64,000 bases of DNA. Origin: a virus. The position numbers were made by a program, and so were the translations under genes. The DNA is taken from IMG/VR virus record IMGVR_UViG_3300047472_000191, positions 1-64,000 of that record, one strand, 5' to 3'. The notes beneath the pieces are model-generated. The model worked only from the letters and a program-made list of their open reading frames with translations. It ran no database searches and had not been told where the DNA came from. This document shows, piece after piece, positions 10,692 through 54,240 of this stretch (position 1 is its first letter; each line of letters starts with the position of its first letter).

Positions 10692-11636
10692 CTACGCGGC
10701 TGCCAGGTCCAGCGTCTCCTGCTTGGAGGCCTTAATGTCCTTGACGAAGCTACGGAACATCGCCAGAACCTGCTTGCCGCACTGCTGGACGGCGTCCATG
10801 ACCTTCTCGGGGTCCTTACCGGCCCACGCGGCGATGTAAGGGGCCGCGTACGAGGCGGAATCCATCCCATACAGCGCGCAGACCATGTAGGAGAAACTCT
10901 CGGCGACCGTCTCCATCACGTCGCGGTGCGCCTGGTACTCCTGCATGTCGCTCACGTGGTCCGCCAGGATGTGGCCGAGTTCGTGCGCAAGCGTCTTGGT
11001 CTGCTGGGCAGGCGACACCCTGTCACTGACTCGCACAGTCATCGTCTTGGGGTCCGTGTAGCCGTTCGCGGTGCCTGTGTTGCCGTGCTCGATCGTGTAA
11101 CCGAGCTTCTCGATCTGCCCGGCGATGTCATCCCACATGTCGGCAGGTGCCGCGCCCCGGAGGTGCTTGACGACGGACGGGCGCCCCACGGACGGCGTGA
11201 TGAACATCGCCTCGTGGGCGGGGTCCTGCCACATCGGCTCGGTCTGCGAGACGTCAAACTCGGCCTGAAGGCGGAAGCCGACGATTTTCTTCTCATCCGG
11301 CCGCCGTTCGTCCTTGACCGCGATGGGGGAGGACACGCGCAGGGCCTTGGAACCCTTGCGAATCCACCGGCCGCGCGCGGCCCACGCCTTGGCGGTGACT
11401 ACGGCAGTCGCGTCCGGGCACTGCGTAAGGAGCAGCAACATGTTGTTGAAGCTGAACCGCGACAGCTCCGTGCCGTCCTTGGCGACCATGGCCTTGAGCA
11501 GCTTGGGCCACGCGTCGGAGGTAACCAGGCCGTTGACGGTTTCGGCAAGCTGGGCGTGGATCTCGGTTGCGATCTGCTTTGCGGCTGCCGGGCTCTTCTT
11601 GGCGGCGTAGCGACGGCTGCTGGTCTTGGTAGCCAT
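10692..11636 (-). CDS. ArdC-like antirestriction protein with zincin domain
   Basis: 314 residues. The N-terminal ~150 residues match the ArdC ssDNA-binding region (FSFNNMLLLLTQCPDATAVV, then KAWAARGRWIRKGSKALRV). The C-terminal part has a metallopeptidase HELGH motif (LAHELGHILADH) with a downstream Glu in ETVAESFSYM. Known ArdC proteins bind single-stranded DNA and protect incoming DNA from host nucleases. Start at MATKTSS (11636), with GAGGAGACTCCC; the 35-residue extension crosses the promoter and is rejected. Divergent from the membrane protein/Xre pair. Confidence 0.8.
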   Translation of the reverse strand: MATKTSSRRYAAKKSPAAAKQIATEIHAQLAETVNGLVTSDAWPKLLKAMVAKDGTELSRFSFNNMLLLLTQCPDATAVVTAKAWAARGRWIRKGSKALRVSSPIAVKDERRPDEKKIVGFRLQAEFDVSQTEPMWQDPAHEAMFITPSVGRPSVVKHLRGAAPADMWDDIAGQIEKLGYTIEHGNTGTANGYTDPKTMTVRVSDRVSPAQQTKTLAHELGHILADHVSDMQEYQAHRDVMETVAESFSYMVCALYGMDSASYAAPYIAAWAGKDPEKVMDAVQQCGKQVLAMFRSFVKDIKASKQETLDLAAA

Positions 11637-11669
11637 GGTGGGAGTCTCCTCGGGTTGGTGTCCCTTGCT

Positions 11670-11686
11670 GATATATCTACAGTAGC
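11670..11686 (-). promoter_or_regulatory. variant phage promoter/operator element
   Basis: GTGCTACTGTAGATATATC on the minus strand; drives the ArdC-like gene. Back-to-back with the + element at 11691. Confidence 0.7.
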
Positions 11687-11690
11687 ACAC

Positions 11691-11706
11691 TACTAGGGTA
11701 GATACG
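11691..11706 (+). promoter_or_regulatory. phage promoter/operator element
   Basis: TACTAGGGTAGATACG; could drive the pair at 11809. It lies 5 bases from the minus-strand element at 11670, so one bound protein could control both directions. Confidence 0.65.
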
Positions 11707-11808
11707 CAAGGGGGATTCACAGCCCAATCGGGAATCCGCACAGTCGCGGTGTGTGGGCGCGGTATAGTTCACACATCAGCACTGCGAAGCAGTGGAAAGG
11801 GGACACCC

Positions 11809-26630: not shown

Positions 26631-27067
26631 TTCGCGGTCTCCGAGTCCTTGTAGGGGTGCCAGGTGGATACAACTCGCCAGGGCAGTACATCTGCCACGA
26701 TCCGGGGCCAGTCCAGCTGCTGCCGTGTGAGGGGGGTGGTGGGGTGCTTTGCCCAGTTGGGGGAGTAGCGGTTTTCGGAGAGCAGGGCTTCCCGAAGGCA
26801 TTCGCCGCAGACGTCCGATGTGGTTACCCGTCGTGCGTCGGGTACCTGATCGGGGTGCACTTCTCCGTGCCGCCAGTAGGCCTCTTCCAGGAGGCGTTCC
26901 CAGTCAACGGCTGCGGCTACGCGTTCCAGGATGGCTGCTGCGGCTTCTTCCATCCGGTCGTGGTCTTCGGTGGGCATGCGTTCGTACGTATCGGTGAGTC
27001 CGTTGCGTACCTGGTTTCCCAGGACATCCTGGGTGAGGACGCGCCATACGGCAAGGCTGTTGGGCAT
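26627..27067 (-). CDS. hypothetical protein
   Basis: 146 residues. Helical start, then VCGECLREAL (CxxC). Resembles actinophage/Streptomyces proteins in which one Cys pair precedes a helix. CAAGGGGGGATC before ATG. First gene of the 27067-25162 operon. Confidence 0.7.
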   Translation of the reverse strand: MPNSLAVWRVLTQDVLGNQVRNGLTDTYERMPTEDHDRMEEAAAAILERVAAAVDWERLLEEAYWRHGEVHPDQVPDARRVTTSDVCGECLREALLSENRYSPNWAKHPTTPLTRQQLDWPRIVADVLPWRVVSTWHPYKDSETAK

Positions 27068-27087
27068 CGGGATCCCCCCTTGGTGAT

Positions 27088-27105
27088 GGTATATCTATCC
27101 TATCA
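27088..27105 (-). promoter_or_regulatory. variant phage promoter/operator element
   Basis: TGATAGGATAGATATACC on the minus strand; drives 27067-to-25162. Confidence 0.75.
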
Positions 27106-27120
27106 CAAAGAGCCTGAAAA

Positions 27121-27165
27121 CGCGGAAGGGGTGTCGAGCCTCAACAGCCCAACACCCCTTCCGCG
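27121..27165 (-). terminator. hairpin terminator
   Basis: Perfect 14-base stem CGCGGAAGGGGTGT/ACACCCCTTCCGCG after the ParB-like gene. Confidence 0.85.
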
Positions 27166-27174
27166 AAACCGGCC

Positions 27175-28098
27175 CTACAGGATCTCAGGGATCGGCTCAC
27201 CCTGCGGGTGGACCATCCGAGACAGCGGCTTTCCACGCCGGTGGGCGTTCCAGGCCCGCACGATGTAGCCGATCGCCCGCACATCCTTGACCCGGATGCC
27301 CTGGTCACGGTCGCTGCGGACACGCTCCCGCAACGTCAGCACCGGATCGTTCTCTTCCAGCTTCGCGCCCGTCTCGATGGCACCGAAAAACCAGGGGGTG
27401 TCCTCCGCGCTGACTTGGTGCAGCAGGAAATGCGACGTGCCCAGCACCGACGGAGACAGCGGCTTGAAGGAACGATGCACCCGCTCCCCGATCTCCGCCG
27501 AACGCCGGATCTCCGGGTGCTTCTCCATCGTCTCCGACAGCTCACCGAACGACACGGCCTCCCGGAACGACCGGTCTCCCCGCTCCCACAGCGCCACGCG
27601 GCGCGCAATCGCGGCAAGAGCCTTGGAGTTCGTCTCACCTCGCAAGGTCAGGTTGTCGGTGTGGGTGCGCTTGCGGCCCGCGTCCATCGTCTCCTGGGCC
27701 TTCAGGGGCAGGTTGAAGATGACCAGCATCTTGACGGGGATACCGGCCCTGACGATGGCCCACAGGCGGTGCTGGCCGTTCAGGAGGGTGCCGTCGACAG
27801 CGATCTGGATGGCTTCGCCGTTCAGCAGCCACCGGCCTTCCTGCATGTCCCGGGTGTACAGCTGGACAGCGGCCTCGCTGAGCCTGCGGTTGCTGACGTT
27901 CTTCTTGAGCCACTCCGCCGCCTGTTCGGGGGTGACGTCGATGATCTCTGTGGTGATCTCGGGAACAACCAGCGCCTTCTTTGCGCGGGGGCGGGGTGTG
28001 CGGGTGGATCCGGTGGTGGCCTCTGAGAAGGTCGGCGCGGGGACCTTCGCGGCGGTCTTTTGCGGTGCATCGACGGCTGTCTTACGGGCGGCTGCCAT
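27175..28098 (-). CDS. ParB-like nuclease-domain protein
   Basis: 307 residues. Residues ~50-110 hold a ParB/sulfiredoxin-type domain with LNGQHRLWAIVRAGIPVKML, as in phage ParB-like proteins. A Pro/Lys-rich, probably disordered N-terminus and a helical C-terminal half follow. Known relatives bind DNA or NTP and serve partition or replication; this one is separate from the ParA gene (15 kb away) and lies beside the iteron-like region at 28205, so an origin-linked role fits. ATG at 28098 has CAGGAAGG; GTG at 28107 is too close to it. Confidence 0.8.
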   Translation of the reverse strand: MAAARKTAVDAPQKTAAKVPAPTFSEATTGSTRTPRPRAKKALVVPEITTEIIDVTPEQAAEWLKKNVSNRRLSEAAVQLYTRDMQEGRWLLNGEAIQIAVDGTLLNGQHRLWAIVRAGIPVKMLVIFNLPLKAQETMDAGRKRTHTDNLTLRGETNSKALAAIARRVALWERGDRSFREAVSFGELSETMEKHPEIRRSAEIGERVHRSFKPLSPSVLGTSHFLLHQVSAEDTPWFFGAIETGAKLEENDPVLTLRERVRSDRDQGIRVKDVRAIGYIVRAWNAHRRGKPLSRMVHPQGEPIPEIL

Positions 28099-28126
28099 AG
28101 CTGGCACACCTTCCTGCTGGGGTTGG

Positions 28127-28144
28127 GATGTATCTACCCTAGAT
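28127..28144 (-). promoter_or_regulatory. phage promoter/operator element
   Basis: ATCTAGGGTAGATACATC on the minus strand; drives the ParB-like gene. Confidence 0.8.
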
Positions 28145-28204
28145 CATACGGAGCGACGTGGGCAACCATCGCTCGATTCTGGTCGTAAGCCTTCCACGAG
28201 TAGG

Positions 28205-28480
28205 CGTCGGCGGTTACCCCGAAATTCGTAACCTGCCGGGTAACCGGCCCCCTCTTTGTTAGGCTGTCTAACGGTTTGAAGATCATCTTTTACCAAACGA
28301 ATGGACGTTACTCGACGATTACCCTACTGGTTGCCCCAAAAGTTACTTCTAGAAAACCCTATCTGACCTGCACATATTCATGATCGTTACCTGGTTACCC
28401 GTGTTTGTGTGCCTGCATACGCGCGCACGCTACGCGCACGGAACGACGGCACCTCATCTTTCTGGAAGGGGTAACCGGGC
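28205..28480. other. iteron-like repeat region, candidate replication origin
   Basis: The 420 bases between divergent transcripts hold no gene. About ten copies of GGTTACC or close variants occur on both strands, at 28212, 28227, 28239, 28307, 28317, 28329, 28341, 28386, 28393 and 28470, in DNA that is A+T-richer than its surroundings. A palindromic GCGCGCACGC stretch lies near 28420. This fits an iteron-type origin or a partition site. Confidence 0.55.
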
Positions 28481-28519
28481 TTCGGGATAGAGAAGGGGCT
28501 CGTGTACATGATCAATATG

Positions 28520-28535
28520 TGCTAGGGTAGATACG
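28520..28535 (+). promoter_or_regulatory. phage promoter/operator element
   Basis: TGCTAGGGTAGATACG; first rightward promoter after the iteron region, drives the gene at 28569. Confidence 0.85.
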
Positions 28536-28568
28536 TACTGAAGGGGACACCGAACCCGAGGGGACCTC

Positions 28569-28757
28569 ATGAACGAGCAGCGCGAACAGACCGCAGACAA
28601 GACGGTCATCGACTCGTACCCGACCGAAGAGGCGGCGTGGGCTCAGGCGCACAAGTTCGCCGCGACGCTCAAGTCCCGTGGCCTGGCAGCCAAGATGGGC
28701 GTCACCGTTAAGAAGGCGTCTGGAGTCTGGCTGATCGTCCTGGTCAAGCGAGGCTAG
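28569..28757 (+). CDS. small hypothetical protein
   Basis: 62 residues, alpha/beta (YPTEEAAWAQAHKFAATLKS; WLIVLVKRG). Standard leader CGAACCCGAGGGGACCTC before ATG. Monocistronic. Function unknown. Confidence 0.75.
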   Translation: MNEQREQTADKTVIDSYPTEEAAWAQAHKFAATLKSRGLAAKMGVTVKKASGVWLIVLVKRG

Positions 28758-28787
28758 GCCCCTGGGGTTGTATCTGCCCCAGGAACC

Positions 28788-28805
28788 TGTTAGTGTAGAT
28801 ACATC
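28788..28805 (+). promoter_or_regulatory. variant phage promoter/operator element
   Basis: TGTTAGTGTAGATACATC; drives the gene at 28839. Confidence 0.8.
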
Positions 28806-28838
28806 GAAACGGACAACACCGAACCGAGGAGACCGTCC

Positions 28839-29186
28839 ATGAGCACCCAGAAGCCCGCCGCCACCATCGTCCCTGTTGCCGCGATCCGCGCCGGATACAA
28901 GGTCGCGTTCGCCGTGGGCGTCAACGGCAAGGAGATCCTGTCCCGTGGCGAGGTCTTCTCGTTCCGCCGCGTCGGCAAGAACCGCGCGGAGATCGTTCTC
29001 CTCCATGCCAAGACCGGCTCGCTCTTCACGAACATTTTGAAGGGTGACAGCCCCGTGGAGGTGCACGCTGAGGCCCTGGTGGCAGACCCCACGGACGCGC
29101 TCTCCGTCGCCCTCATGGTGCACGTGCAGGAGCTGCTGAAGGGCCAGGCTTCCGACTTTTACACGATCATGCCCATCGAGGACTGA
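28839..29186 (+). CDS. hypothetical protein
   Basis: 115 residues, beta-rich and basic in the middle (ILSRGEVFSFRRVGKNRAEI), with a helical C-terminus. Standard GAGGAGACCGTCC leader. No family recognised. Confidence 0.75.
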   Translation: MSTQKPAATIVPVAAIRAGYKVAFAVGVNGKEILSRGEVFSFRRVGKNRAEIVLLHAKTGSLFTNILKGDSPVEVHAEALVADPTDALSVALMVHVQELLKGQASDFYTIMPIED

Positions 29187-29200
29187 TCGTCCCTCACACT

Positions 29201-29233
29201 CCCGGCCGTCCGTGTCCATGCCGGACGGCCGGG
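29201..29233 (+). terminator. hairpin terminator
   Basis: 12-base stem CCCGGCCGTCCG/CGGACGGCCGGG after the gene at 28839. Confidence 0.85.
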
Positions 29234-29262
29234 GGCACCACCTCGCACACCCTCCTGATGGA

Positions 29263-29297
29263 GAAAGGGCGGGAGAGCACCAGCTCTCCCGCCTTTC
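29263..29297 (+). terminator. second hairpin terminator
   Basis: Stem around AGGCGGGAGAGC/GCTCTCCCGCCT with A/T flanks, 30 bases after the first hairpin. Confidence 0.7.
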
Positions 29298-29298
29298 G

Positions 29299-29314
29299 CG
29301 CTAGCGTAGACACC
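29299..29314 (+). promoter_or_regulatory. degenerate phage promoter/operator element
   Basis: CGCTAGCGTAGACACC in the right place for the gene at 29346 (leader CCAAGGAGACC). Two core changes from consensus. Confidence 0.6.
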
Positions 29315-29345
29315 CCAAAACTGGACACCACCCAAGGAGACCAAA

Positions 29346-29645
29346 ATGGCCCAGTACCCGTTTGCCGTCGTGTTCACGACCGAGACCGACCTGTTCAGGT
29401 ACGTCGTGACCGCCAACGACCGCGTGCAGGCCCAGGCCCGCGCCCGCAAGAAGCACTACGCGGCGCAGGGGGAGGACGCTCCGGGGGATGTGGGCCGGAC
29501 TCTGAATCTCGACCCGAAGCGGGTGGACGGCAAGTTCCTCCCGCGTATCGACGGAACGGTGATGTCCCAGGTACCGCGCGATACCAAGGCGGAGGCGGTC
29601 GACGCTGCGCTGGAGTTCCTCAACACCCGGAGGTCAAACGCATGA
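29346..29645 (+). CDS. hypothetical protein
   Basis: 99 residues. Beta-alpha start with an Ala/Arg-rich helix (RVQAQARARKKHYAAQGEDA). Resembles small actinophage proteins of the type FxVxFxTETD. CAAGGAGACCAAA before ATG. ATGA overlap with the next gene. Confidence 0.75.
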   Translation: MAQYPFAVVFTTETDLFRYVVTANDRVQAQARARKKHYAAQGEDAPGDVGRTLNLDPKRVDGKFLPRIDGTVMSQVPRDTKAEAVDAALEFLNTRRSNA

Positions 29646-30984: not shown

Positions 30985-31020
30985 ACATCGCAACCCCAAC
31001 TGACTATGGAGGACACACCT

Positions 31021-31614
31021 ATGAGCGCTCCGATCACCCTCAGCAAGGACGACGGCGCCGCCGATCTCGACGGAGTCACCCACATGGCCATCGGCGTCTC
31101 CTGGGACACCACCGCCGGGAGCAGCGGTGGCGTGGCGGGCTTCCTGCGCAACAAGGTCGGCACCGACCTCGACCTGATCGCCATCGCCATGCAGGGGCCG
31201 GACCCGGTGCGTCTCGCGGGCCTGGACTCCCTGGACCCCATGACCAACGGGTCCCTGGTGCACAGCGGCGACAACCAGACGGGCAAGGGCGAGGGGGACG
31301 ACGAGATCGTCACGGTTGACTTCGCCCGGATCCCGCCGAACGTCACGGCGATCGTCTTCGTCGCTGCCGCCTACAAGAAGGGCAGTTCCTTCCAGAAGGC
31401 CCGAAACATCAGCTTCAAGGTGTACGACGCCACCGGCGGCAGCAGTACGCAGGTGGCCGACATCTGGCCGTCCCTCCTCAGCGCGGACAACGGCTGCGCG
31501 GTCGCCAAGGCGTTTCGCGATGGCAACGGCTGGAAGCTCCAGGTCGTCAACGAGACGGGGAAGATCAAGCAGGGTGACGAGTACGCTCTGATGCGCTTCG
31601 CCATCAACAAGTGA
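31021..31614 (+). CDS. TerD-family protein
   Basis: 197 residues. TerD/TerE signatures: GVSWDTTAG near residue 24, DLDLIAIAM, GSLVHSGDNQTG, GEGDDEIVTVD and a strand-rich C-terminal half. The family is calcium-binding and is linked to tellurite resistance, phage resistance and stress in bacteria. In a phage it may be a moron gene that changes the host during lysogeny. Start MSAPITL chosen for ATGGAGGACACACC; an in-frame ATG 5 codons up overlaps this RBS. Confidence 0.88.
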   Translation: MSAPITLSKDDGAADLDGVTHMAIGVSWDTTAGSSGGVAGFLRNKVGTDLDLIAIAMQGPDPVRLAGLDSLDPMTNGSLVHSGDNQTGKGEGDDEIVTVDFARIPPNVTAIVFVAAAYKKGSSFQKARNISFKVYDATGGSSTQVADIWPSLLSADNGCAVAKAFRDGNGWKLQVVNETGKIKQGDEYALMRFAINK

Positions 31615-32253: not shown

Positions 32254-32270
32254 GATAGGCTAGATCCATG
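32254..32270 (+). promoter_or_regulatory. degenerate phage element, leaderless type
   Basis: GATAGGCTAGATCCATG: two changes from the leaderless consensus TAGGGTAGATACATG; its ATG is the start of the primase gene, and no RBS is present. Confidence 0.65.
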
Positions 32271-33200
32271 TCCGAAAAGCTAGATGCCGCCCTCGAATGG
32301 CTGGAGGACGGGTACGTCCTTGCCAAGCTGCACGGCCTGACCCGCCGGGGCGTCTGCACCTGCGGTAAGCCCTGCGGCAAGCGCGCGGGCAAGCATCCAG
32401 TGTTCAAGGACCCGCACGGCGAGCACGCCATCCGTACCCCCGAACAGGCCGAGGCCGCGTTCTCCAGCGGTTTGTACAACTTGGGGCTAGTTACCGGCAG
32501 TCCTACCGGCATCGTCGTACTGGACGTGGACACGGACGAAGGCAAGGTGGGCCGGGAGTCTCTGGAGAAGCTGGCAGCCGCGCACGGCTGGGACGATCTG
32601 ACCGCGACCCGGCAGCACCGGACCGGAGGCGGCGGGACGCAATTTCTCTTCAGCTACAAGGGACCGGTCCTCAAGACCACGCTGTCGGTGCTCGGACCAG
32701 ACCTGGACTTCAAGGCCGGGGACGGCGGGGCGTTCATCGTGCTCCCTCCGTCGCGCAGTGCGAAGGGCCTGTACGAGGTGCTGTCGGACGACCCCATCCA
32801 GAAAGCCCCCAGCTGGCTCCTGAAGCTCTGCGAGAGGCAGACCGACCCGACGGGCCGGGAGGGCACTGTTCAAGCCTCCAGCGTGGCGTGGACGGCCCCT
32901 CCGGACGGTGCCACGGCTCAACGGTGGGACTACTACGCGGAGCGGGTCATCTGGGAAGCACGGGAGAAACTCCGGGACCTCCAGACCGCCAAGAGCGGCT
33001 GGACGATGGGGATCTTCTCCGCCTGCTGCACGATCTTCGAAATAGCGAATTCGCCCTGGAATACGGTCGGTGTCCGGGAAGCGGAGCGGCTGATCCGGCA
33101 GGTACTGCCTGTCGTGACCGACGGCAGCGACTTCAATCCGTGGGATGTAGTCGAGCAGGCAAAGCGCAGAACAGCAGGCAAGGGGCGCCCTGCCCCCTGA
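32268..33200 (+). CDS. Prim-Pol primase/polymerase-like replication protein
   Basis: 310 residues. Residues 1-190 match the bifunctional primase/polymerase domain: LEWLEDGYVLAKLH start, the Cys motif (CTCGKPCGKRAGKHP), NLGLVTGSPTGIVVLDVD with catalytic VLDVD, and RTGGGGTQFLFSY. The C-terminal ~110 residues are helical; there is no helicase domain, unlike the longer fusions. It probably starts DNA replication for the element together with a separate or host helicase. It has no RBS and appears leaderless. Confidence 0.85.
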   Translation: MSEKLDAALEWLEDGYVLAKLHGLTRRGVCTCGKPCGKRAGKHPVFKDPHGEHAIRTPEQAEAAFSSGLYNLGLVTGSPTGIVVLDVDTDEGKVGRESLEKLAAAHGWDDLTATRQHRTGGGGTQFLFSYKGPVLKTTLSVLGPDLDFKAGDGGAFIVLPPSRSAKGLYEVLSDDPIQKAPSWLLKLCERQTDPTGREGTVQASSVAWTAPPDGATAQRWDYYAERVIWEAREKLRDLQTAKSGWTMGIFSACCTIFEIANSPWNTVGVREAERLIRQVLPVVTDGSDFNPWDVVEQAKRRTAGKGRPAP

Positions 33201-33224: not shown

Positions 33225-33593
33225 ATGGATCTGACGGTTGGGCAGATGGCGCACGTGGTGCACGAGGCGAACCGGGCGTTACAGCGGATTGTCGGGGATG
33301 CCGTGGTATCCCCGACGTGGTGGGAGGCCCCACTGCATCAGCGGGACGGGCTCATGCACGGCGTGCGGAGGGCTCTTGCGGGCGCTACGCCGGAAGAGCT
33401 GCACGAGGAATGGGTGCAGTGGCGCACGGACCGGGGATGGCGGTACGGGCTGATCAAAGATGACTTTGCCAAGACCCATCCGTGTCTGGTCCCGTATGAC
33501 CAGCTGCCTGCCGAACAGCGGGTGAAGGATCATCTGTTGTTGGCGATCGTGACCACGCTGGCGGCGCACTTGTCTCCGGTGGAATCGGCCTAG
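33225..33593 (+). CDS. RyR-domain protein
   Basis: 122 residues. The C-terminal part matches the phage RyR-like module: WVQWRTDRGWRYGLIKDDFA, KTHPCLVPYDQLPAEQRVKD and a closing helix. RyR modules are fused to signalling and defence proteins in bacteria and occur alone in phages; the ligand is unknown. GGAGGGTGTA before ATG. Follows the primase in the same transcript. Confidence 0.8.
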   Translation: MDLTVGQMAHVVHEANRALQRIVGDAVVSPTWWEAPLHQRDGLMHGVRRALAGATPEELHEEWVQWRTDRGWRYGLIKDDFAKTHPCLVPYDQLPAEQRVKDHLLLAIVTTLAAHLSPVESA

Positions 33594-40202: not shown

Positions 40203-41393
40203 TCAGGTTCCGCTCATGGTTTGGGTTTCAGTCGCTGGGTTTGCCCGCCGGTGCCACGCGGCACGTGCCTCCTTGAGCCGGGCGTACGCAGTGGACCGAG
40301 TGAGTTCGAGTTCGTTCTGAACCACCGGGATGTTCACTAGGTCAAACCCGAGCAGATCCATCAGTTCGAGAACAGCTGTGACCTGCGCGGTCTTCGTCGT
40401 GGCCCGGTCGGTCAAACTCACAGGCGTGGGCGCAGTTTGCTCCACAGGGGGTTCGGGTTTGAGTTTACCTGGCCCCTGAGCAGCAGCCTGCTCCGATTCG
40501 AGTTTGCCGGGCTCCTCAGGAAGTTCGGCAGGGAGTTCGAGTTCGTCAGAGAGTTCACCGGAGAGTTCGCCCGGAAGTTCGCTGGGCATCTCAGGGAGTT
40601 CGGCGGGGGCGAGTTCGGGTTCAGCCGGGGGTTCGGCGGGCTCCGTAGGAAGTTCGGGTTCGTTGGGGAGTTCGGCCGGTACGCGTTCAAGCACGGGACT
40701 GGGCGCCGCCGTCAGTTCCGGAACCCCCTCCGCAGGCGCCAGCTCTCCCATCCGCAGCCGTACCCGCTGAATCTGCGTCGTCTTCCGGCGCCACCCTCGC
40801 CCGTGCTTGTCCCTCAGCTCCGCCCTAGCCATGAGGCGCGCGCTCTCCAGCCGCAGCCCTGTCCGGTACGACGTGACCTCCCACAGGACCATTCGCCGCC
40901 ACAGCCGGGCTGTAGAGAATGGGGCCAGGAGCCACCGGGACTTTCTCACCCGTTCCATGCGGCGCCCGGTGACGGCCCCGATAAGCGCCCGGTACACGTG
41001 TGCGGCGATTTCTGAGCAGACCACCCACAGCAGCGGGAGGGCGCCGTGGCCGATCTGAGGTGCGAGACTGTTTCCGGCTGCGGAGACATTCAGGTACATC
41101 GTCACCGCTGTGAGCGTCCACGGAACTGCCCGCACCCACCCGAGGGGCATATCGGCCCGAATTAGCAGGAGGTGGGCCAGGGAGAATACGGGGATGGCTA
41201 TGTCGACGGCTACGGGGAGAATCCAGAAGGGACGGAATCCCCATTCCTGTGCCTGCTGTCCGACCGTATCGAAGGATGCGAGTAGGCCGAGTGCGCCGAC
41301 CCCGAACGCGCCTATGATCACCGCTACGAGAAGGTATCGTTCGAATCGCAGCAGGTCGGGGATTTTGTTGTCGGGGGGCTGATCCGGCGTCAT
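40203..41393 (-). CDS. DUF2637-type membrane protein with Glu/Pro repeats and HTH
   Basis: 396 residues. Four membrane spans in the first ~145 residues (YLLVAVIIGAFGVGALGLLA; FWILPVAVDIAIPVFSLAHL; then two more) match the DUF2637 family of actinomycete plasmids, where SpdB-like proteins assist plasmid spread. Residues ~230-330 are an ELPxEL/EPxEL repeat, probably an extended linker. The C-terminus is an HTH like that of the gene at 39470. AAAGGACATGCGAA before ATG at 41393; an upstream TTG-type extension is rejected. Confidence 0.82.
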   Translation of the reverse strand: MTPDQPPDNKIPDLLRFERYLLVAVIIGAFGVGALGLLASFDTVGQQAQEWGFRPFWILPVAVDIAIPVFSLAHLLLIRADMPLGWVRAVPWTLTAVTMYLNVSAAGNSLAPQIGHGALPLLWVVCSEIAAHVYRALIGAVTGRRMERVRKSRWLLAPFSTARLWRRMVLWEVTSYRTGLRLESARLMARAELRDKHGRGWRRKTTQIQRVRLRMGELAPAEGVPELTAAPSPVLERVPAELPNEPELPTEPAEPPAEPELAPAELPEMPSELPGELSGELSDELELPAELPEEPGKLESEQAAAQGPGKLKPEPPVEQTAPTPVSLTDRATTKTAQVTAVLELMDLLGFDLVNIPVVQNELELTRSTAYARLKEARAAWHRRANPATETQTMSGT

Positions 41394-41460
41394 TTCGCAT
41401 GTCCTTTCGAGGTAGATCAAGTGGTGGTAGTCTAGCACTTTTGTGCTGGTCAGAGACGGA

Positions 41461-41504: not shown

Positions 41505-42194
41505 TCAGGAACGGGGCTTTTTCCGTGGAATGTCCGGAAGCCACCAGTCCAATACCGCGTCAAGGAAATCCGACCGGGACGGGAACCCGTACCCCTCCCA
41601 GATGACGTCAATGACAGCCAGCTCCTGCCGAGAAGGCCGGAAAGGCTGCTGGGCAGTCTGTTTGATCCGGCCCCGAGCCGATCGCCGTCCTTCTACCTCC
41701 CCGAACAGACTGCCTGAATCGTCTTCATCGTCTTCATCCGGTTGGAGCCGTGCGAGGGCCCTTTCCCGGATTTCGAAGAAGGCCCCAGCGTTGTTTGCAG
41801 CGTTCACAGCCCGCCGGACCACCACGGCATTAGTGGGAGTCCGGCTCGTCTCCTGGGTCTTGGCCGCCTGGTACGTGTCGAACCTGTCCCGTACGTCCAA
41901 GGAGATGTTGACCGCGCACTGCATGGTCAGTTTCCCTGTCGGTCCAAGGTCCGGAAACGTGAGAGCGATCGGGTCGGGCCGGATGCTCTCCACCGGGGCA
42001 GGCTGTGCAGGCACCAGGACGGGTTCAGGGGCCTCCGGCTCGACAACGGGAGCCGGTTCCTCGGCGACAACCGGCAGAGGCGCTACAGGGGCCTCTGGAG
42101 CCTTTGCAACCCGGGGCTTCTCCCGCTGCGGTCGCCGGGCGAAAGCCGCCGCCAGATCCGGATCATCCGGAAGCCCGCCAAGCCGCTCGGTCAT
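41505..42194 (-). CDS. probable ParB-type partner of ParA
   Basis: 229 residues, overlapping the ParA stop by 4 bases. Long Pro/Val/Glu-rich N-terminal region (~25-75), then NISLDVRDRFDTYQAAKTQE...RTPTNAVVVRRAVNA, which resembles a ribbon-helix-helix strand-helix pair, an acidic linker and a C-terminal helix pair. Partner genes after parA in actinomycete plasmids often have this layout and bind repeated centromere sites. Identity rests mainly on position. Confidence 0.65.
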   Translation of the reverse strand: MTERLGGLPDDPDLAAAFARRPQREKPRVAKAPEAPVAPLPVVAEEPAPVVEPEAPEPVLVPAQPAPVESIRPDPIALTFPDLGPTGKLTMQCAVNISLDVRDRFDTYQAAKTQETSRTPTNAVVVRRAVNAANNAGAFFEIRERALARLQPDEDDEDDSGSLFGEVEGRRSARGRIKQTAQQPFRPSRQELAVIDVIWEGYGFPSRSDFLDAVLDWWLPDIPRKKPRS

Positions 42195-43162
42195 GCCGCG
42201 TCCACCTCGTCATCCAGGGCGAACCACGTCTGCACGACCTCCATCGCAAGGGACTGGTAGTCCCCGGCGAGCGCCCGGATAGACGGCAGCAGCTTGGGGT
42301 CCACCTCCTTGGAATTCCGCAGCTCCTGCGGCACCTTGCCAAGCTCACGGCACTTCACGGCCGCGGCCTCCACATGGCGGATGGCCTGATCGAACACCGG
42401 GGCGGTGCCCTGGAGATCCCTCTCCAGCTGCTCCTTGATGTTCTTCTGCACCTTCGTGGCCGACGTGTTCGTGGAGAACAGGACGACGCCCAGCAGCCGC
42501 AGAAGCGGGTTCAAGTCCAGTGCGGTGACGAAACGCCGGGCCACGACCCGCAGCCCCTTACGGGACGAAGGATCCGACTTGGACGGAATCAGCACCATGT
42601 CGCCGGACGTGAGCGCCTGTAGCTGGAGAACATCCGACCCGGGGGCTACGTCGAGGATGATGCAGTCGAACTCCTCGCGCAGCGGGTCGATCGCAGCCGC
42701 GTACATACCCATCCACGCGGTGCGATCCTCAGACTCGCCCTGGGACATGGCGATACGCCGCTGTACATACAGCTCCTCGACCACGTTCTCCAGCTCGGTA
42801 CCGCCCGGGACGACGTACAAGTTCGGGCGTGCGGGGCCGGTCGGGGCCAGAGGCTTGCCTTCCAGGATGGCGGCGGCTTGAGCGGAACCGTTGTCGTCGA
42901 GCTGAGTTTTGGTGATGCCGAGGTCTTCACAGTTGTTGCCCTGTTCGTCCATCTCGATGAGCAGGGTCTTTTTGCCGATGGCTGCCAGCGCCACAGCGAG
43001 GGCGGCTGCCGTGGACGATTTGCCGACGCCTCCCTTGCCGTTGACGATGACGATGATCTTTCGGAGCAGGTCGCCGTTGTCGATGAGCTGGAGTCGGCGG
43101 CGGAGTGCCTTCTTCACCGTGTCGAGCTGGACCAGCGTGATGCTGGCTTGGATGGCTGGCAT
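42191..43162 (-). CDS. parA: ParA-family partition ATPase
   Basis: 323 residues. Deviant Walker A KGGVGKSSTAAALAVALAAI near residue 45, switch I/Walker A' region EMDEQGNN, and Walker B FDCIILDVAPGSDVLQL. N-terminal ~35-residue helix. Drives plasmid-type segregation with its partner at 41505. GGAAGGCACCCCC before ATG. No copy of the phage element lies upstream; TAGCACG repeats at 43331 may be the centromere or operator. Confidence 0.92.
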   Translation of the reverse strand: MPAIQASITLVQLDTVKKALRRRLQLIDNGDLLRKIIVIVNGKGGVGKSSTAAALAVALAAIGKKTLLIEMDEQGNNCEDLGITKTQLDDNGSAQAAAILEGKPLAPTGPARPNLYVVPGGTELENVVEELYVQRRIAMSQGESEDRTAWMGMYAAAIDPLREEFDCIILDVAPGSDVLQLQALTSGDMVLIPSKSDPSSRKGLRVVARRFVTALDLNPLLRLLGVVLFSTNTSATKVQKNIKEQLERDLQGTAPVFDQAIRHVEAAAVKCRELGKVPQELRNSKEVDPKLLPSIRALAGDYQSLAMEVVQTWFALDDEVDAA

Positions 43163-43396: not shown

Positions 43397-44047
43397 CTAC
43401 GGCTTGAGGGGCTCCCAGCAGCCGCACTTGAAACGACAGTGGGTGTGCTGGCGGGTAGTCGGGTCCCAGTGACTGGTGAGGACGTGCCCGCACCCCCGGC
43501 GCTCACACACCGGCGGGTCATCGACCGGATACCGGTCCGTGTTGTACGCGATGGACCTTGGGTCCCGGTTGTCGCCCCACTCCCGCATGAGCCGTTCCCG
43601 CGTAACGATCCGGGTGATCCCCATGGCACCTATGAGCGCCTCGCATTGCGGGCAAGGTTCATCGGTGATGTAGATGGTGGCGCCCTTGAGGGCTTCCCGG
43701 CCTACTGCCGCGACAGCCTGGAGAACGGCGTTGTGCTCGGCGTGAATGGCAGAACAGCGCCAGCCCGGGGCGTTGTAGTCCCCGCCCGGCGGGACGTCCT
43801 CCTTGGACCGCAGGCCGCGCTCACAGCCCTTCTCCTCGAAGGAGCAGTGGGGTTTCCCGGAGCCGGTGCCGTTGTAGCCGGTGCCGACTATGTTCGGCGG
43901 GGACCCGGCCGTGATGACCGCGCCGACGTGGCGACGGGTGCAGATGGCCATCTCAGCTTCGCCATGGGCGTGTTTCAGGTTGACCTTGTCCCGGAGTTCC
44001 TTGCGCTGCTGCTCGTATTCCGGGCCGCGTTCGACGGGTCGTTCCAT
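43397..44047 (-). CDS. deoxycytidylate deaminase family protein
   Basis: 216 residues from ATG 44047 with AACGGAGAACACC. Zinc-binding HAEHNAVLQAVAAVGREALK with catalytic Glu and PCPQCEALIGAMG, the CDA/dCMP-deaminase signature; an insertion with Cys/His (CSFEEKGCERGLRS) lies between. The C-terminus has extra Cys (CERRGCGH; CRFKCGCWE), possibly a second zinc. Converts dCMP to dUMP to feed dTTP for phage DNA. Confidence 0.88.
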   Translation of the reverse strand: MERPVERGPEYEQQRKELRDKVNLKHAHGEAEMAICTRRHVGAVITAGSPPNIVGTGYNGTGSGKPHCSFEEKGCERGLRSKEDVPPGGDYNAPGWRCSAIHAEHNAVLQAVAAVGREALKGATIYITDEPCPQCEALIGAMGITRIVTRERLMREWGDNRDPRSIAYNTDRYPVDDPPVCERRGCGHVLTSHWDPTTRQHTHCRFKCGCWEPLKP

Positions 44048-44071
44048 GGTGTTCTCCGTTCCACGAAAAGA

Positions 44072-44097
44072 GGGCTGCACGGTTTCCCGTACAGCCC
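44072..44097 (-). terminator. hairpin terminator
   Basis: GGGCTGCACGG/CCGTACAGCCC stem between the ADP-ribosylglycohydrolase and the deaminase. Confidence 0.75.
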
Positions 44098-44107
44098 CCA
44101 GGGGTTG

Positions 44108-45154
44108 TTACAGCTGCTCTGCCAGCTTGCGCAGCTCCTGCGCGGGACCCGTCTCCAGCTGGTCCACCCACTCGGTCGGCCACTCGACTCCGGCCGCGCC
44201 ACGGATGTTGCCCGCGATCGCCGCGAGGGAGTCGCTGTCTCCGTTCGAGACGGCTGCACGCTGGAGAACCTGAACCGGCTTGTCCCAGAGACCGACGGTG
44301 CACAGCATGGCCCCGGCAAGCGCCTCGGGAGCCGTCCAGCCCTCACCCGTGATCTGGCAGGGGTCGCTGTCTCCGGCCCAGCCGTGGCGGAGCGCGTTCT
44401 GTGCCTCCATCAGGTACTTGGCGCACAGGTCGTATCCGGCCCGCAGGTACTCCTTGCTGGAGTGGTACTCGGACTGCTCCCACAGGTCACCGAGCACCCG
44501 GGTGGGGTAGCTAGTGCGCAGATGGGCATTCAGGGATTCCTCAATGAGGAAGTCCAGAAGCTCCATTCCCTCCATGCCGTCGTAGGCGCCGAGGGTTGCC
44601 GCCACCGTGAGCCCTGCCGCCGCCAGTGCTGCCGGGTGAGCGTGCGTTACGGCAGCTGACAGGTAGGCCAGGTTGATGGGGGACTCGTACAGGTCGTTGG
44701 ACAGTGCGATCGGTGCGACGCGCATGTTGGCGCCGCATCCCATGGTGTTGATGTCCGTGGCGTCCTGCCAGGTGTAGCCGTCGCGCAGCATGTCGCAGGC
44801 TCGCATGCAGGCGTTGCCGGGTGCCCGGCGGTTGTCGGGGTGCTGGGACCAGTAGACGTACTTACTGACCAGCTCGTCCGCGAAGCTCTCCGTGTACGTC
44901 CCGAGGTTGCTGGGTCGCATCTGGAGGAGGGCCCGGCCGGTGGCGATGGTCATCTGGGTGTCGTCGGAGATGAGTACCTTGCCGTCGGCGTCGCGGTAGC
45001 GCTTCGGGTGAGGGGCGTTGTCAAAGTCGGCGGTCTGCCAGTTCCGGCCGGGAAGGAAGTTCAGGATGTCGTTGGTGCGGTTGAACTCGCGGCTGTAGCC
45101 GAGGGCGTCTCCGAGGGCGCCTCCGATAAGCGAGGAAAGGGCCTTGGCATTCAA
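44108..45154 (-). CDS. ADP-ribosylglycohydrolase (ARH/DraG family)
   Basis: 348 residues. Family signatures: IGGALGDALGYSRE at the N-terminus, ISDDTQMTIATGRALLQM (metal-binding Asp pair), NMRVAPIAL and the C-terminal SNGDSDSLAAIAGNIRGAAG. These hydrolyse N- or O-linked ADP-ribose from proteins or DNA using two Mg ions. In a phage it may reverse host ADP-ribosylation, including toxin-based defence, or remodel NAD metabolism. Leftward and controlled by the element at 45184. CTCAGGAGCACCCTTGA before ATG. Confidence 0.9.
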   Translation of the reverse strand: MNAKALSSLIGGALGDALGYSREFNRTNDILNFLPGRNWQTADFDNAPHPKRYRDADGKVLISDDTQMTIATGRALLQMRPSNLGTYTESFADELVSKYVYWSQHPDNRRAPGNACMRACDMLRDGYTWQDATDINTMGCGANMRVAPIALSNDLYESPINLAYLSAAVTHAHPAALAAAGLTVAATLGAYDGMEGMELLDFLIEESLNAHLRTSYPTRVLGDLWEQSEYHSSKEYLRAGYDLCAKYLMEAQNALRHGWAGDSDPCQITGEGWTAPEALAGAMLCTVGLWDKPVQVLQRAAVSNGDSDSLAAIAGNIRGAAGVEWPTEWVDQLETGPAQELRKLAEQL

Positions 45155-52536: not shown

Positions 52537-54240
52537 GTGGCACGCAACGCATGGGCGGACCGTCTCGCCACCCTCTACGAATTACAGGCAAAACAGGATT
52601 CACACCGCAATCCCGCCGTATGGGTAAAAGACATCCTCGGCGAGGACATGTGGTCCATGCAGACCGCCATTTGTGAGAGCGTCCGGGACCACCGATTCAC
52701 TGCCGTCCAGTCCTGCCACGCCGCCGGGAAAAGTCATCTGGCCTCCCGGCTGGCCGCCTGGTGGATCGCCACCACGCCCATGGAAGAGGTCTTCCTCGTC
52801 ACCACGGCGCCCACAGCCCGCCAGGTGGCCTCCATCCTCTGGCGCTACATTCAGCGCGCCCACAACCTTGCCAAAGAGCGGGGCTTCACCATCCCCGGGC
52901 AGATCCTTTCCTCACCCATCCCGTCGTGGAAGATCAACGGGGAACTTGTCGGTATCGGGCAGAAGCCGCCGGACAAGGAAGACTCTGCCTTCCAGGGTTT
53001 CCACGCCGAAAAGATCCTGGTCGTCATCGACGAAGCGTGTGGTGTCGACCGTTCCATCTGGGACGCCGTGGACTCCCTCGTGACCAACGAATCGTCCCGG
53101 GTGCTGGCCATCGGAAACCCTACCGACCCGGCTTCCCATTTCCGGCAGGTGTGCTCCCCGGAATCCCCGCTAGGTGAGAAGTGGAACAAGCTGCGGATCG
53201 ATGCCCTGCGGTCCCCGCTGATGACGGAAGAGGCGTGCTCCCGGTACCCGAAGCTGGTGGAGTACATGAAGGCGGAGGGGATCCCCTTCTCCACCGAGGC
53301 GGTGTCCTCCACGCTCCAGAAGACTCTGGTGGGTCCGACGTGGGTGTATGAGTCCATGATCGGATGGGGCAAGGAATCTTCGCTGTTCAATGCGAAGGTC
53401 CGGGCGATCTTCCCCGAGACGTCCGCTGAGGGCACCATCCCGCTGGCCTGGGCCGAGGCAGCCATGGCCCGGTGGGAACGCTGGCGCGACGGCACGTACA
53501 TCATCGACCCCGACACCGAAGAGCCGGTGTGCGTGGAAGAGCCGCGCGCCCAGCAGATCGGTGAGATCGTCATCGGCGCGGACATCTCCGACGGCGGCGA
53601 GGACGAGACAGTCGCGGCCGTCCGGCAGGGCGATGTAGTCCGCGAACTGCTGGCTTTCCCCTCCAAGGACCCGCTGACCACTGCGGACGATCTCCAGATC
53701 ATTGCCGCCAAACACGGGGCGCCGACGAACGCGAAATACATCGTGGACGGTATCGGCGTCGGCTCCGGTGTCGTGGCCAAGCTGCGCCGGGACGGTCAGG
53801 ATACGTACGCGTTCATCGCCGCCGCCAACTCCGGCCGCAAGGACACCACACAGAAGATGTCGTTCATCAACGACCGTGCGGCGGCCTGGTGGAATCTGCG
53901 GGAGCTGCTGAACCCCTCCCGCAAGGGCGGCGCCACGATCGCGTTCCCCCGGGACGAAAAGCTGCTGGCGGAGCTGACCTGCCCGCGCTACGACACACAG
54001 CCCGGTACCCCGAAGTACAAGATCGAAAAGAAGGAAGACATCAAGACCCGGCTGGGGCGGTCGACCGACCGGGCCGACGCTGTCATTCACGCGTTCTGGA
54101 TGCCGTACGGACCGGCTCCTTTCGAGGCGCCGAAGGACCACGACTGGAAGGCCTCCGACGAACGCTATACCGACAACGATTCAGAGGCCGTGGTGGAGAC
54201 ATGGGATACCACCACGGATATGGAACTCTCGGGCTGGTAG
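52537..54240 (+). CDS. terL: terminase large subunit
   Basis: 567 residues from GTG with AGAAAGAGGGCAGGGC. ATPase domain: Walker A-like SCHAAGKSHLASRLAAWW (~60), Walker B KILVVIDEACGVDRSIW (~160), and a coupling region VLAIGNPTDPASHF. The nuclease domain from ~340 has VIGADISDGGEDET, KYIVDGIGVGSGVV and STDRADAVIHAFW, giving three acidic metal ligands. Drives and cuts DNA at the portal. A TTA codon lies at residue 16. Confidence 0.93.
   Translation: MARNAWADRLATLYELQAKQDSHRNPAVWVKDILGEDMWSMQTAICESVRDHRFTAVQSCHAAGKSHLASRLAAWWIATTPMEEVFLVTTAPTARQVASILWRYIQRAHNLAKERGFTIPGQILSSPIPSWKINGELVGIGQKPPDKEDSAFQGFHAEKILVVIDEACGVDRSIWDAVDSLVTNESSRVLAIGNPTDPASHFRQVCSPESPLGEKWNKLRIDALRSPLMTEEACSRYPKLVEYMKAEGIPFSTEAVSSTLQKTLVGPTWVYESMIGWGKESSLFNAKVRAIFPETSAEGTIPLAWAEAAMARWERWRDGTYIIDPDTEEPVCVEEPRAQQIGEIVIGADISDGGEDETVAAVRQGDVVRELLAFPSKDPLTTADDLQIIAAKHGAPTNAKYIVDGIGVGSGVVAKLRRDGQDTYAFIAAANSGRKDTTQKMSFINDRAAAWWNLRELLNPSRKGGATIAFPRDEKLLAELTCPRYDTQPGTPKYKIEKKEDIKTRLGRSTDRADAVIHAFWMPYGPAPFEAPKDHDWKASDERYTDNDSEAVVETWDTTTDMELSGW

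Follow-up and report, generated by a model that had tools for sequence, protein, structure and literature searches.

The noncoding array C1 (positions 28205-28480) of virus record IMGVR_UViG_3300047472_000191 is probably an iteron-type replication origin, or a cis replication site bound by an initiator, of a system served by a helicase (helicase A) in a large phage of actinobacteria, probably of Streptomyces. The record, here called G000, is 124,939 bp long, and the window covers its bases 1-64000. C1 is read as an origin for several reasons. Of its two sister arrays in the same genome, C2 starts upstream of the helicase A gene and C3 directly follows the gene of a second helicase, B; both helicases match phrog_5177, and a model of helicase A matches the SaPIbov1 Rep protein; phages in which primase and helicase are fused carry equivalent arrays 3' of the fused gene; the order, orientation and spacing of the words are conserved in the C1-type and C2-type arrays of relatives; the array diverges faster than the genes that flank it; and the sole Prim-Pol gene lies nearby. 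An earlier note on this DNA had proposed an iteron origin here, and at the level of sequence the proposal has gained strong support from the conserved array, its sister copies beside initiator-type helicase genes and the equivalents in known phages.

C1 is recognised as an element by its density of GTTAC words, its sister copy and its conservation in the relatives G001, G002 and G003. It holds eight exact copies of GTTAC or its complement GTAAC, five on the plus strand (28213, 28307, 28342, 28386 and 28394) and three on the minus strand (28228, 28240 and 28471), and two degenerate words, GATTACC at 28317 and GGTTGCC at 28329. The "about ten GGTTACC-type words" in both orientations that had been noticed before are these ten, spanning 28212-28476. 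The background density of GTTAC is 0.26 per 276 bp, and shuffled C1 sequences contain 1.1 copies on average and at most six (2000 shuffles). Allowing one mismatch to GGTTACC, C1 has eight sites against a shuffle mean of 1.4, and none of 1000 shuffles reaches eight. The full 7-mer alone is a weak signal because the window has 10 exact copies, four of them in C1, with 5.4 expected by chance. Across the 125-kb record, only C1, C2 and C3 reach six or more GTTAC per 276 bp. A motif-free scan ranked C3 first, C2 third and C1 fifth; ranks two and four (at about 40.4 and 13.7 kb) overlap open reading frames (ORFs).

The gap that contains C1 (28108-28569) is noncoding and, as had been claimed, A+T-richer than its surroundings, with a G+C content of 0.53 versus about 0.64 for the window. 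Its interior (28265-28385) drops to 0.38-0.47. An iteron origin is expected to combine noncoding short repeats in excess of chance, an A+T-rich candidate melting region between groups of repeats, and a candidate initiator encoded on the same replicon; C1 has the repeats, 28265-28385 is such a region, and helicases A and B are such candidates.

C2 (67985-68242) aligns to C1 at about 70% identity, with an identical core of 34 bp, and starts 89 bp upstream of the divergent helicase A gene. C3 (119056-119389) is composed of GGTTACA-type words and begins right after the stop codon of the helicase B gene. C2 and C3 are linked directly to a phrog_5177-type helicase gene, and C1 through its likeness to C2. 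An HNH endonuclease gene is located just past C2 (68408-68884 in G000; L009:2409-2885). A helix-turn-helix (HTH) gene lies upstream of helicase B, and the end of an HTH-like gene precedes the third array of G003.

Helicase A is a P-loop ATPase of 614 amino acids, and helicase B is a 612-amino-acid paralogue, 41% identical to it; no third paralogue was found in the G000 record. Neither has a confident Pfam match. Both match phrog_5177, annotated as "DNA polymerase/primase" (E=3e-102 and 1e-85), over the C-terminal two thirds of its 876 positions, starting at about position 302, and resemble the C-terminal half of actinophage proteins named "DNA primase/polymerase/helicase". In 147 phage records a helicase of this kind is fused to an N-terminal Prim-Pol domain, the fusion being verified for the aligned records among the 147. 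In G000, Prim-Pol is a separate gene (32268-33200, plus strand; PF09250, E=1.9e-21), the only PF09250 match in the record. It lies 3.8 kb from C1, in agreement with the "4 kb on" of the earlier note. When an AlphaFold model of helicase A is searched against the Protein Data Bank, the only significant match is to SaPIbov1 Rep (8tch; E=1e-6, probability 1.00, 640 columns, TM-score of about 0.2), which supports kinship rather than detailed structure, since TM-scores are low. No match of the helicase to SaPI Rep was found at the sequence level, and the DUF927 hit of the homologue from phage Hiyaa is below the cutoff. For the C-terminal part of helicase A, the predicted order of elements is strand-helix-helix-strand-strand-helix (pLDDT 75), which suggests a winged helix. 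A scan of genome contigs for the helicase returned one relative, and 393 Streptomyces genomes yielded no further helicase relative, only Prim-Pol matches; the module is therefore rare in chromosomes. No relative of helicase B was found in the IMG/VR scan, whose peptide patterns detect close relatives only.

C1 belongs to a rapidly evolving yet conserved element that accompanies the replication helicase gene of many viruses of soil actinobacteria. Among the characterised phages of Streptomyces, Arthrobacter, Microbacterium and Micrococcus that were examined, most have an array comparable to C1 3' of the fused gene. A gap of 290-610 bp with an array comes after the fused gene in Stuff, Microdon, JackieB, HeadNerd, RAP15, Greenhouse, Hiyaa and Johann; in Olihed, IndiRoo and FireCastle, one or two inserted minus-strand genes displace the array. 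Each array is enriched in one lineage-specific word (GATACAC, GTTACA, GTTACCCC, TGCTAGA, TGCTAAA or GACACAC), and the array 3' of the fused gene in the Streptomyces AcH 505 prophage has GGAAACC/GGTTTCC words. By inspection, the parts recur in one general order, which C1 follows too: direct repeats (spaced 11-12 bp), an alternating CGCG tract and, at the end, an inverted word. Control gaps are mostly unenriched, the exceptions being one gap of Johann (GC-rich words) and one of Archimedes.

The earlier note had made its proposal depend on conservation of the repeats in relatives, and they are conserved: C1-type arrays are present in G001, G002 and G003, giving four genomes in all, C2-type arrays are present in G001 and G003 as well, and they lie upstream of helicase A in at least 11 contigs. 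G003 has a third array near its contig end with a different word, GGATTACA. Across 12 aligned arrays, the order > << >>> >> < of direct (>) and inverted (<) words is retained, together with its spacing, around a TCTGACCTGC box. Identity is 0.81 in the iteron columns and 0.46 in the others, and none of 270 shifted masks reaches 0.81; this is supportive but not independent, because such words attract the aligner. C1 of G000 and C1 of G001 are 64.5% identical, compared with 88% for the ParB-like gene on the left and 86% for the genes on the right. In G001, C1 has a higher identity to C2 of the same genome (0.70) than to C1 of G000 (0.64), suggesting that the two arrays exchange sequence or have adapted jointly to one protein. 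The last iteron base, C or A, was considered as a marker of helicase A versus helicase B and was ruled out by G005, which has helicase A and GGTTACA words. Hits to CTGACCTGCAT at G001:46284 and G012:9804 are not arrays.

Within C1, the left iteron cluster (28212-28245) has one direct word (28212-28218) and two inverted words (28228-28233 and 28239-28245), the inverted pair being 12 bp apart. Its > < < order is retained in 10 of the 12 aligned arrays, among which C1 of G002 adds an inverted word; the words of this cluster are degenerate in C1 of G001 and C2 of G012. It is followed by an A+T-rich spacer (28250-28306; G+C 0.38-0.42), a candidate melting region with the core AAGATCATCTTTTACCAAACGAATGGAC starting at 28279, which is the same in C1 and C2 of G000. 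Four middle direct iterons (28307, 28317, 28329 and 28342; 28307-28346, plus strand) come next at a spacing of about 10-13 bp, and the corresponding period in relatives is 11-12 bp. The TCTGACCTGC box (28362-28371, plus strand) is not an iteron; it is invariant in all 12 aligned arrays and is present in C3 too. To its right are a pair of direct iterons 8 bp apart (28385-28399, plus strand), an alternating purine-pyrimidine CGCGCGCAC tract (28417-28439) and a terminal inverted iteron (28470-28476, minus strand). By inspection, tracts of the same type occupy the same position in other arrays of this group, as they do in Stuff, JackieB, Johann and FireCastle.

If C1 is an origin, helicase A, encoded beside C2, would bind the GGTTACC words of C1 in trans. 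Assembling at both groups of iterons, it would open the spacer of A+T-rich DNA and load there. It would then recruit the separately encoded Prim-Pol protein, which would make the primers, and C1 itself would fire. A more elaborate proposal, which we consider conceivable but rather doubtful, is that G000 is a multi-origin replicon in which two SaPI-Rep-like helicases serve three iteron origins. An ancestral fused primase-helicase module would have been split, with the primase and helicase genes each keeping an array about 35-40 kb apart and the two arrays staying alike by exchange within the genome; C1 would be an orphan origin fired in trans, coupling replication of the early region to the primase gene.

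Several observations weigh against C1 as an origin. No helicase gene adjoins it, the nearest being 38 kb away, in contrast to SaPIs and the fused-gene phages with their adjacent origins or candidate origins. Cumulative GC skew, which the earlier note had offered as a check, has no clear turning point at C1. Helicase A is poorly modelled as a whole (pLDDT 50), its match to SaPI Rep is a local similarity only, and a fold search with the C-terminal model returned no significant Protein Data Bank match. Among the fused-gene phages, the arrays of Pumancara and Vulture show no significant word enrichment; in two Gordonia phages, Archimedes and Ghobes, the fused gene is present with no gap 3' of it, and no comparable array was found elsewhere in the Archimedes genome.

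The lack of a helicase gene beside C1 would also be explained if the initiator binds C1 but replication starts elsewhere, with C1 serving as an auxiliary cis element or in titration or handcuffing while initiation takes place at C2 and/or C3. P4 requires a second iteron array (crr) in cis, several kb from its origin, and C1 and C2 are likewise separated, by 33-40 kb, in G000, G001 and G003. However, C1 has the full architecture of an array, including the spacer, the box and the terminal iteron, and the only Prim-Pol gene is near C1, so we think this explanation unlikely, though it is the strongest of the competitors. It is considerably less probable that C1 is an operator or enhancer of two divergent early transcripts, with helicase binding incidental or absent. 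C1 does lie between two divergent promoter-like elements, each a 14-bp GCTAGGGTAGATAC element, one for the ParB-like gene (28130-28143, minus strand) and one for the rightward genes (28521-28534, plus strand), and C2 is upstream of the helicase A gene. Yet both elements are outside the array, the other promoter-like elements of the window have no GTTAC cluster, C3 and the arrays of the fused-gene phages are 3' of genes, and a purely regulatory site need not follow the helicase gene across lineages. The least probable explanation, which we give hardly any weight, is that C1 is a functionless, degenerate relic of C2. The iterons at 28317 and 28329 are degenerate and C1 scores lowest of the three arrays, but C1 is retained in four genomes with its word order conserved while the spacers diverge.

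The earlier note had also offered a partition locus, and it is very improbable that C1 serves the ParB-like protein as a parS or centromere, with the ParA-like ATPase encoded at 42191-43162 as a possible partner. The gene to the left of C1 (27175-28107, minus strand) is, as noted before, ParB-like in that it matches phrog_5931, and some depositors label its relatives "ParB-like nuclease domain protein"; no Pfam ParB model matches it. It adjoins C1 in G000, G001 and G002, and the phage encodes a ParA-family protein. In contrast, G003 keeps C1 and, on one side, a neighbour similar to the gene at 28839-29186, while its other flank carries a different gene and no ParB-like gene was found in its 89-kb contig. 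C2 and C3 have no ParB-like gene alongside, the ParB-like and ParA-like genes of G000 are 14 kb apart, and no Streptomyces-type parS occurs in the window at up to three mismatches. The linkage of centromere and ParB gene that characterises ParABS systems is thus not kept by C1, and the ParB-like gene probably does not belong to the origin. The phage may have a partition system elsewhere; it would not account for the arrays.

Iteron origins with a helicase as initiator are known from SaPIs and P4. The iterons that SaPI Rep recognises, through its C-terminal domain, lie immediately downstream of the rep gene (PMC7581432). The resemblance to the SaPI rep-ori may include the initiator helicase (DUF927 helicase family), the only significant fold-search match of the helicase A model, and it extends to short iterons in two groups flanking A+T-rich DNA (for SaPIs, PMC7581432 and general background), to an ori beside the rep gene (C2 and C3) and to a separate primase protein. 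The differences are that C1, unlike C2 and C3, is not beside a rep-like gene, that C2 is upstream rather than downstream of the helicase gene, that G000 has three arrays, two helicases and a Prim-Pol-type primase, and that it is a whole 125-kb phage with terminase, portal and endolysin genes, not a satellite. The phrog_5177 module of actinophages such as Stuff, HeadNerd and Johann shares the homologous helicase half and the same general array order 3' of the fused gene; it has one fused gene and one array, whereas G000 has primase and helicase split, the helicase duplicated and three arrays, and its iteron word is unlike that of G000. P4 alpha is a primase-helicase initiator that binds repeats via a winged helix and has a Toprim-type primase (PMC4234260). 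P4 resembles G000, G001 and G003 in having two separated arrays, and differs in its fused alpha protein with a Toprim-type primase, its other iteron and a second array that is a few kb, not 40 kb, away. The pRN1 initiator ORF904 combines Prim-Pol and helicase, and a cis element adjoins its gene on the 3' side (PMC4234260); that element is a stem-loop without iterons.

No paper describing the actinophage arrays as origins was found in the literature searched, whose coverage is incomplete, so an earlier description is possible. As far as searched, the split initiator/primase module, the orphan array near the primase gene and the presence of three arrays in one phage genome are new. Only a minority of tailed phages have a known origin, and one alignment here points to a candidate origin in 147 sequenced actinophage records with a helicase of this kind, many of which are laboratory isolates. 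As each lineage has its own iteron word beside its own helicase, initiator-iteron specificity is open to swaps, and the arrays could supply new replicons for Streptomyces and Arthrobacter. A 125-kb phage genome with three arrays and two initiators would raise the question of how several origins are coordinated.

Other identities were considered for C1 and rejected. A DnaA-dependent oriC is not indicated, as no TTRTCCACA occurs near 28.2 kb at up to one mismatch and the window has 14 such sites against 14.2 expected. There is no Rfam match to a known structured RNA at 27000-29500. Repressor stoperators or operators would be dispersed over many promoters, but the GTTAC clusters are confined to C1, C2 and C3. 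On position only, an attachment site and a packaging site were set aside, the tyrosine integrase gene (PF00589; 18289-19353) being 9 kb and the terminase gene (52537-54240) 24 kb away.

G000 is a tailed phage, as it has endolysin, terminase, portal and integrase genes. A Streptomyces-like host is probable, as suggested by the G+C content of about 0.64 and by the relatives. A megablast search of 24 kb against a public phage collection found no close phage of G000. The ParA-family ATPase (42191-43162; AAA_31, E=3e-26), which has no recognised ParB partner adjacent to it, and the integrase together suggest a temperate or plasmid-like state. To the right of C1 are an ORF of 62 amino acids (28569-28757, plus strand), read from the sequence, and a conserved gene of 115 amino acids (28839-29186, plus strand), a similar protein of which adjoins C1 in G003 (both sequences compared by eye). 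The GCTAGGGTAGATAC element occurs at 29 sites in the window at up to one mismatch (0.03 expected), 5' of many genes, and appears to be a recurrent promoter-like element of the phage.

A 670-bp gap in Archimedes (L079:34175-34844) has a CTGACCTGC box, GTGAAC words and a DnaA-box-like TTGTGGATAAG; it is not the usual array and is possibly an origin of a different type. In G000, a TerD-domain protein (31006-31614) is encoded in the early region close to C1, and a RyR-domain protein (33225-33593) immediately after the Prim-Pol gene. Further genes of the window encode an anti-restriction-like protein (10692-11741; phrog_7245, E=9e-9), a dCMP deaminase (43397-44080), an ADP-ribosylglycohydrolase-like protein (44108-45154; phrog_6572) and a DUF2637 protein (40203-41438), whose gene holds dense AGTTCG repeats at about 40.3-40.7 kb.
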